Shown: piece by piece, positions 45,817 through 47,126 of the stretch | Layout: each line of letters begins with the position of its first letter | Position numbering within the stretch: position 1 is the stretch's first letter | Translations under genes and position numbers: made by a program | Notes under the pieces: generated by a model | What the model was told of the DNA's origin: nothing | What the model saw: only the letters and a program-made list of their open reading frames with translations | Database searches by the model: none | Origin: Alkalisalibacterium limincola | Lineage (GTDB): Bacteria > Pseudomonadota > Gammaproteobacteria > Xanthomonadales > Xanthomonadaceae | Direction of reading: 5' to 3' | Assembly (NCBI RefSeq): GCF_008017755.1 | Contig: NZ_VRTS01000001.1 | Location: 62,001-126,000, forward strand | DNA length: 64,000 bases

Positions 45817-45871
45817 GGCTATCGGGCCGCTGCGGGCGCACCTTGCGCGGTGCCCTTGTCCCGGCCCAATG

Positions 45872-45898
45872 AAAAACCCCGGGCGCGGACGCCCGGGG
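45872..45898 (-). terminator. Intrinsic terminator of the first cold-shock gene
   Basis: CCCCGGGCG/CGCCCGGGG stem (9 bp, tetraloop) followed on the minus strand by five T. It lies 25 nt past the csp stop. Confidence 0.85.
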
Positions 45899-45922
45899 CT
45901 TGGAAATACGCCGGCCGCCGAC

Positions 45923-46132
45923 TTACAGCGGGGTGACTTCCTCGGCCTGCAGGCCCTTCTGGCCCTGCACCACTTTGAAGCTCACCTTCTGGCCTTCCTG
46001 CAGCGACTTGAAGCCGGTGCCCTGGATGGCGCGGAAGTGGACGAAGACGTCCTCGCCGTTGTCACGGCTGATGAAGCCGAAGCCCTTGGCGTCGTTGAAC
46101 CACTTGACCGTACCCACCTGATGATCCGACAT
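45923..46132 (-). CDS. Cold-shock protein, CspA family (copy 1)
   Basis: 69 aa, a single cold-shock domain. RNP1 KGFGFISR and RNP2 VFVHFRAI are intact, with the start [11 protein letters not shown]. It binds single-stranded nucleic acid as an RNA chaperone. It differs from copy 2, ~450 nt upstream, at about a dozen positions. The long leader with a conserved element suggests temperature control at the RNA level. AGGAGT is the ribosome site. Confidence 0.96.
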
Positions 46133-46301
46133 GACTTTGCTACTCCTACAACTGTTTGGATTGAACTCCGGAGTGACGCCCCGGATTGCGTTGCTGGTTG
46201 CCAGGAGTTAAGCATGGAACGTCGATGCAGCGGATCGCAGATCTACTTCATCGGGCCACGGACTCAAAGTGACCCAAGCAAACTCAGCGACTTGGATACT
46301 A
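46133..46301 (-). promoter_or_regulatory. Leader and promoter region of csp copy 1
   Basis: A -10-like TAGTAT lies at 46296-46301, predicting a ~157-nt leader. Positions 46221-46287 match the leader of csp copy 2 at most bases. The segment 46197-46213 can pair with 46139-46152, which contains the AGGAGT ribosome site (GCU/AGC, ACUCCU/AGGAGU, CAAC/GUUG), hiding it. The promoter call is tentative; the conserved block and pairing are read directly. Confidence 0.6.
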
Positions 46302-46515
46302 CCCCGGCTTTTTTTCAATTGCGAGTAGGTGCGGAAACCGCCGCCGAGTCGAATGGAAAGGAGTAAACGCGGTTAACCGGGATAATCGGCCAACCGGATG
46401 CTTCAGGATCCTGAAACACTGGTGGCGCAGTGCAAGGGTGCCGCGGGCGGGTTCGCGCTTTGAATCGATACCCGACCGCGCGGGTCGCTGCATCCGCCCA
46501 CAGACATCCGCCCAC

Positions 46516-46545
46516 AAAAAAGCCCCGGACGATGCCGGGGCTTTT
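46516..46545 (-). terminator. Intrinsic terminator of the second cold-shock gene
   Basis: AGCCCCGG/CCGGGGCT stem with a 6-nt loop, followed on the minus strand by five to six T. It sits 34 nt past the stop, so each csp gene is its own transcript. Confidence 0.88.
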
Positions 46546-46578
46546 CCTGGTTCGGCGCAAGCGCCTAGCCGATGCTGC

Positions 46579-46788
46579 TTACAGGGCCTGAACTTCTTCA
46601 GCCTGCAGGCCCTTCTGGCCCTGCGTCACCTTGAAGGTGACCTGCTGGCCTTCCTGCAGCGACTTGAAGCCGTTGCCCTGGATGGCGCGGAAATGGACGA
46701 ACACGTCCTCGCCGTCGGCGCGGCTGATGAAGCCGAAGCCCTTGGCATCGTTGAACCACTTGACGGTACCGGTCTGACGATCGGACAT
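46579..46788 (-). CDS. Cold-shock protein, CspA family (copy 2)
   Basis: 69 aa with KGFGFISR (RNP1) and VFVHFRAI (RNP2). It differs from copy 1 mainly in the loop [13 protein letters not shown] and the last residues. The start is preceded by AAGGAGT. The tandem arrangement and matching leaders suggest an old local duplication including the control region. Confidence 0.96.
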
Positions 46789-46964
46789 AGCATAACTCCT
46801 TGAAACAGTTGACTAAAGGTTGATCCAACGCACGCTCTGGCGCGCTGGGTACTGTTTTGCAAGGAGTAAAGACTAGCGAGATGTACGCGATGTAGCGGAT
46901 CAACGACCTACCGCATCGGGCCACGATTCACAGTGACCCCAGCAAACACAGTGGGTGCACTGTA
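46789..46964 (-). promoter_or_regulatory. Leader and promoter region of csp copy 2
   Basis: A possible -10 TACAGT is at 46959-46964, giving a ~164-nt leader. Positions 46887-46951 are the counterpart of the copy 1 element. The arm 46851-46867 pairs with 46795-46809 over ~15 bp (ACUCCUUG/CAAGGAGU plus AAACAGU/ACUGUUU), covering the ribosome site at 46795-46802. The remaining ~160 bp to the next gene hold only its probable upstream promoter DNA. Confidence 0.6.
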
Positions 46965-47126
46965 CGCCCTTCCCTGCATAAAAGCGACTGTTTCCAGCGC
47001 GCCCTGAATAGACAACGTCCGTCCGTTCAGAATGCGGCCAATGCGGCATCCATGACCACCGCCACACACGCCCTGCACGGCACCTGGCCTATGCTTGGAA
47101 ATTGCCTTCACGCTGAGGAATGCCCG

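Follow-up and report, generated by a model that had tools for sequence, protein, structure and literature searches.

The cspA mRNA of Escherichia coli is the textbook cold-sensing RNA, and heat-type zipper thermometers such as ROSE and fourU hold the Shine-Dalgarno (SD) sequence occluded in a helix. Sections of one report (PMC6386945) describe a cspA 5′UTR that in the cold keeps a fold likely identical to that of its transcriptional intermediates, fragments shorter than 190 nt folding alike at all temperatures and longer ones diverging at 37 °C, and passages of another (PMC9947658) indicate that CspA helps the translation of cspA mRNA in its closed form. Our searches of open-licence papers returned no account of a csp leader of the type described below, and the text of a Xanthomonas csp paper (PMC6637868) uses neither UTR nor untranslated nor transcription start.

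The locus compared here with these systems lies in a 64,000-nt window of Alkalisalibacterium limincola DNA (the whole stretch that was analysed), which has a G+C content of 69% and belongs to a draft genome of 3.03 Mb. Two csp genes encoding 69 amino acids each lie on the reverse strand, as do all features given below, in tandem and 446 nt apart: copy 1 at 45923–46132, identified by its open reading frame, Csp motif and neighbours, and copy 2 at 46579–46788, identified by its open reading frame. The two proteins are 85% identical, and a search of the same genome with the Csp protein at E ≤ 0.001 returned these two genes only. A GC-rich hairpin followed by a U-run stands downstream of each gene, so that each looks like its own transcript.

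The leaders of the two genes are homologous, with lengths of ~156 nt (copy 1) and ~164 nt (copy 2). A preliminary description of the locus had pointed to a match outside the coding regions between 46221–46287 and 46887–46951, and this is upheld by local alignment of the sequences upstream of the two genes: the top alignment scores 69 over ~70 columns, whereas none of 500 shuffles scored above 27. The 65-nt conserved element described there is likewise real, with the correction that it consists of two stem-loops (SL1 and SL2) and a 5′-terminal strand complementary to the anti-SD arm. Its start had been placed just after a candidate −10, a placing that is supported by a conserved promoter (TTGCAT, 17 nt, TAnnnT) found directly upstream of the element in 73 related leaders. 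The next conserved base past the −10 in these leaders is a purine after C, seven bases below the −10, which we take as +1 and which coincides with the first base of the element; the predicted RNA would accordingly start RCUGUGUUUGC. Judged by this promoter profile and by matches to a covariance model of related leaders (R1, below), the leader of copy 1 spans 46133–46288 with a predicted +1 at 46288, and that of copy 2 spans 46789–46952 with a predicted +1 at 46952. Read from the sequence and the −10/−35 profile of the relatives, the candidate −10 of copy 2 is TACAGT (46959–46964), and that of copy 1 is TAGTAT (46296–46301), which is off the consensus register by one base and accompanied by a poor −35.

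The 73 leaders have a common layout. SL1 (GGGUCAC/GUGGCCC) and, after it, SL2 (GAUG..GAUC/GAUC..CAUC) stand at the 5′ side and are joined by a linker to the anti-SD arm (CUCCUUGCAACCAGY), beyond which lie a variable hairpin, the SD arm (GUUnCAAGGAG) and the AUG, in this order. In copy 1 the 5′-terminal strand that pairs with the anti-SD arm in a helix here called P0 lies at 46271–46288 (assigned by duplex energy and first-base covariation), SL1 (GGGUCAC..GUGGCCC) at 46253–46275, SL2 (GAUG..CAUC) at 46224–46252, the anti-SD arm common to P0 and the SD helix at 46193–46208, and the SD arm at 46140–46158 with AGGAG at 46143–46147. The corresponding parts of copy 2 are the 5′ strand of P0 at 46935–46952 (assigned by duplex energy), SL1 at 46918–46939, SL2 at 46889–46917, the anti-SD arm at 46851–46867, and the SD arm at 46793–46811 with AGGAG at 46796–46800. 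Copy 1 also contains in hairpin 3 a second anti-SD-like stretch (ACUCCGGAGU, 46163–46180), which can pair with the SD or decoy the anti-SD arm.

Related leaders precede csp genes in the Lysobacterales and Pseudomonas and constitute a family. A profile of 28 relatives matches 136 of 173 csp leaders, obtained from Csp-protein searches and including many from Pseudomonas genes, at E < 1e-3 and mostly at a constant distance to the start codon; 26 of the 173 lack any profile match. A covariance model (R1) of 150 positions was built from 73 non-redundant leaders in a sequence-only alignment (A2). One leader with a cut 5′ end (L049) and near-duplicates were dropped before alignment; another, L112, has its SD arm misplaced in A2 yet was kept in the tests. 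R1 finds just the two leaders in the genome of the window, and searches with strict filters, the counts from which are therefore lower bounds, gave matches in at least 80 of 200 genomes of the order and at least 13 of 274 genomes of the class. All 56 order matches from outside the family of the window, counted with the three weakest left out, stand directly before a Csp gene. The 13 class genomes comprise three of the window's family, one of another family (G279) with two R1 matches beside csp genes, and nine with weak matches (L177–L185) that were set aside as chance, the Csp motif being absent from the fetched DNA. R1 also matches 20 of 21 csp loci mainly from Pseudomonas, and none of 28 csp loci from other gammaproteobacterial families.

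Two SD-sequestering helices had been proposed, 46197–46213 with 46139–46152 in copy 1 and 46851–46867 with 46795–46809 in copy 2, and both are present, at −17.6 and −22.2 kcal/mol, respectively (25 °C). The accompanying remark that the arms differ in a covariation-like manner is borne out by alignment counts and partner-swap tests. On A2, SL1, SL2 and the SD helix together have 88.0% of cells paired, compared with 85.4 ± 0.3 in shuffles and 31–46% when the helices are slid, and 49 doubly changed cells, compared with 21.5 ± 4.0 in shuffles; by helix, the paired cells amount to 95.7% in SL1, 92.9% in SL2, and 79.0 and 76.9% in the SD helix. When SD arms were exchanged among the 73 leaders at 25 °C, a permutation that leaves shared ancestry in place, native anti-SD:SD partners gave −15.84 against −13.70 for permuted ones, with 0 of 20000 permutations as low and the native partner better in 86% of rows. 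The same exchange among 56 new leaders gave −12.06 against −11.13 (14/20000 as low). In L140, L118 and L160, which are among the clear compensated cases, CUUGCAAC/GUUnCAAGG is replaced by CUUGGAGC/GCUCCAGGG or CUUGGAAC/GUUCCAGGG. We regard the SD helix as a likely real element.

The anti-SD arm is also complementary to the 5′ end of the mRNA (RCUG..UUGC..GGG), forming P0, a competing pairing missed in the preliminary description, where the arm was paired with the SD only. P0 came to light through RNAalifold, which for 28 leaders returned a long-range rod joining the 5′ end with the anti-SD arm and not the SD helix. On the fixed columns of the alignment, the rod without its outer helix showed no covariation (84.7% vs 84.6% in shuffles); covariation emerged after the outer RCUG:CAGY helix was added, in some measures only, doubly changed pairs and pair types not being above shuffles. 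At the outer pair itself, columns 2 and 135 hold G-C in 43 of the 73 leaders and A-U in 23, with 6 other combinations and one gap, and when the first RNA base is compared by motif with the base after CAG the pairs are G-C in 46 and A-U in 24 of 70 scorable leaders, plus one G-A and two unscorable leaders. Among 56 leaders of other families the outer pair is A-U in 36, G-C in 9, G-U in 10, G-A in one and A-C in none (Fisher p 1.5e-5), two matches of low score that were truncated or lay on the opposite strand having been dropped beforehand (L297:1-113, A-C; L290:281-396, A-T). R1, as built from A2, treats the two columns independently, and the combination of first base and arm was therefore not selected by the model. 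Over 134 scorable leaders outside Pseudomonas, which overlap the earlier 73 and 56, the counts are A-U 71, G-C 52, G-U 10, G-A 1 and A-C 0; for this count a false pattern match (L246) was left out, the arms of L282, L287 and L050 were re-read by eye, and the csp genes left unscored were 59 without the 5′ pattern, 5 without an arm, 2 without a start and one that was short.

Exchanging whole 5′ ends among arms gave −18.88 for native against −17.03 for permuted partners in the 73 rows (0/20000) and −18.43 against −17.42 in the 56 rows (3/20000), compared with 6282/20000 for a control swap of 5′ end and SD. The inner part of P0 alone gave a weak result in this test (711/20000). Tree-aware contrasts yielded 2 and 7 starred pairs, none opposing and too few for significance, with b differing in only about 1.8/7 in the second set. 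A swap by clade, with Luteimonas-type leaders set against all others, gave a mixed outcome: this clade's 5′ ends pair worse with other arms, and the reverse combinations are no worse. One Pseudomonas clade (L058–L104) has an A mismatched with CAGC in 19 of 22 scorable leaders and a CAGU 5–6 nt later in most rows printed; the register of P0 may be shifted in this clade. The duplex energies of P0, −19.8 kcal/mol in copy 1 (25 °C) and −20.9 kcal/mol in copy 2, are similar to those of the SD helix. One anti-SD arm has two exclusive conserved pairings, the inner portion of P0 being weakly supported; we regard P0 too as a probable element, with somewhat less confidence than the SD helix.

Folds of whole mRNAs predict the SD to be closed in both copies at 10, 25 and 37 °C (0.99–1.00). 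Equilibrium folds of Lysobacterales leaders predict no temperature dependence, and opening of the SD is predicted to be costlier in the cold, with a mean of 8.1 kcal/mol at 10 °C and of 5.0 kcal/mol at 37 °C. As the SD is predicted to be closed at equilibrium over this whole range, induction in the cold cannot come from melting, and cold-favoured translation, if the leader confers any, must come from kinetics or helpers. Folds of growing transcripts, which are equilibrium folds of fragments and carry no kinetics, follow the same order in both copies. SL1 is present at 40–70 nt. In transcripts that include the whole anti-SD arm, this arm is paired mostly with the 5′ end and SL1 is open; in those that also include the whole SD arm, the 5′ end is free again and SL1 is back. 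Another fold intervenes in copy 2 at one intermediate length, and in copy 1 the second anti-SD-like stretch competes and prevails at 10 °C when the leader is folded by itself. When the 73 leaders are cut 12 nt downstream of the anti-SD arm, pairing of this arm with the 5′ end exceeds 0.4 in 52 at 10 °C and 55 at 30 °C; at full length, where P0 is minor, it does so in 14 and 15, respectively. The arm pairs with the 5′ segment at >0.4 in 73% of the 73 truncated leaders, and in 23% after shuffling of that segment. What the computation shows is the leader's anatomy and conservation, covariation both in the SD helix and at the outermost pair of P0, and the succession of predicted folds.

We propose that the leader is a bistable RNA that would control Csp translation as a kinetic cold-ON switch, its anti-SD arm having two mutually exclusive partners, and assign this model as a whole a probability of about 0.5. 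During transcript growth SL1 would form first. The emerging anti-SD arm would then capture the 5′ end of the mRNA in P0 and open SL1, leaving the SD free, after which the emerging SD arm could displace the 5′ end, allowing SL1 to re-form and closing the SD. In the warm this last exchange would be fast, so that the message would be mostly off; in the cold it would be slow, so that new messages would stay in the P0 form and be translated. Messages that have closed may be opened again with the help of Csp or a helicase. The presence of both forms in cells, and a choice between them that depends on temperature in the direction given, are inferred.

Weighed against this model, a rival account would have a constitutive or autoregulated SD hairpin keep Csp low until it is opened by a helicase or by Csp itself, which is an RNA chaperone, the complementarity of P0 being a by-product. 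Such a hairpin agrees with the SD helix being the predicted equilibrium at all temperatures and having covariation of its own, and according to passages of PMC9947658 the CspA protein of E. coli promotes translation of its own mRNA in the closed form; however, the conservation of RCUG, its co-variation with CAGY and the excess of 5′ pairing in truncated leaders over shuffled ones would all be left unexplained, and we consider this account unlikely. Alternatively, the 5′ element could act otherwise, in transcript stability, as a site for a protein such as Csp or in attenuation ahead of the gene, the SD helix then being of secondary importance. SL1 and SL2 are indeed the best conserved parts of the leader, but a terminator-like U-run between the element and the gene was not seen by eye in the two leaders, and P0 ties the 5′ end to the partner of the SD arm; we give such roles slightly less credence still.

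The occlusion of the SD by a helix, shared with ROSE and fourU, could also suggest a zipper thermometer of the classical kind, in which warming would melt the SD helix. The helix here is far too stable for this, opening of the SD still costing 4.6–5.8 kcal/mol at 50 °C in the two copies, such a thermometer would switch a cold-shock gene on by heat, and no Rfam thermometer family except cspA reached threshold in the window. A zipper thermometer is very improbable and was rejected for its high predicted stability. Switch-type (two-state) RNA thermometers likewise have two exclusive pairings around the ribosome site, but differ in that no temperature response is predicted here at equilibrium.

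The closest likeness is to cspA (Rfam RF01766). Both have a csp mRNA with a leader of ~160 nt and an SD-sequestering helix, the upstream arm of which lies ~50–60 nt away, and such a helix is present in both window copies. In our folds of E. coli cspA, a transcript of 160 nt has the arm (nt 83–95) paired with nt 1–60 at both 10 and 37 °C. Transcripts of 175 and 190 nt keep this 5′ pairing at 10 °C but have the arm on the SD arm at 37 °C, and at 205 nt the SD arm is its partner at both temperatures. In E. coli, then, short length or cold goes with 5′ pairing and greater length or warmth with SD pairing; the exchange of partners with growing length is shared with the leaders described here. The preliminary description had called the locus a distinct, simpler-looking design, a judgement that is not supported, given the nearly identical position of the SD-sequestering helix in RF01766 and the same kind of competing pairing in cspA, whereas its homologous leaders, conserved 5′ element and covarying SD helix stand. 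Unlike here, where both competing strands lie in the leader, the 37 °C form of E. coli pairs the 5′UTR with coding sequence.

R1 gave no match to E. coli cspA at E ≤ 10 or E ≤ 1, and the cold box (TGACGTACAGA) was not found within 45869–46990, the window as a whole having six matches with two mismatches, a chance-level number. The RF01766 model scores 99.6 bits on copy 2 and 76.2 on copy 1 (gathering 78; E. coli 500.8), its printed alignments match mainly the coding part and terminator, and it places the wrong stretch of copy 2 on the anti-SD arm; no other Rfam family reached threshold in the window. With the cold box absent and no homology to the E. coli leader recognisable at the sequence level, we do not file the leader as a member of RF01766, yet hold that it probably works like cspA. 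It is possible, and we suggest it tentatively, that the leaders of Lysobacterales and Pseudomonas represent an unlisted RNA family acting as a self-contained kinetic switch, with first nucleotides that mimic the SD arm, so that each leader would retain a memory of its transcription temperature by way of a three-step strand exchange (SL1, P0, SD helix). Such a family would be a counterpart of the E. coli cspA thermosensor, either independent or far-diverged.

The two paralogous leaders first described belong to a wider leader family, supported by covariation, in which a single arm has two pairings that compete. An apparently unrelated sequence with the same two-partner logic as cspA, wide in xanthomonads and Pseudomonas, offers a natural comparison; its leaders are compact, with both competing strands upstream of the gene, and single-base swaps at the first nucleotide make the proposed mechanism directly testable.

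Some minor observations concern individual relatives. Rehaibacterium (L007 / L033) resembles the window in having a tandem csp pair with two leader copies, one of the G-C and one of the A-U type. A 3.7-kb contig titled Bacillus subtilis SK7B5 (L056) and a 26-kb contig of a Candidatus Eremiobacteraeota MAG (L036) each carry a csp gene and leader of the Lysobacterales type, which suggests that these records are contaminated or mis-binned. Upstream in a Pseudomonas nitroreducens csp locus (L042:202-251) there is a match to the Guanidine-II riboswitch (36.3 bits; gathering 32). A second Pseudomonas leader type (L063, L093, L097, L100, L105, L107, L111) starts with ACUGUGUUGC and has the arm end GCACUCAGU, and its SL1 looks rebuilt.
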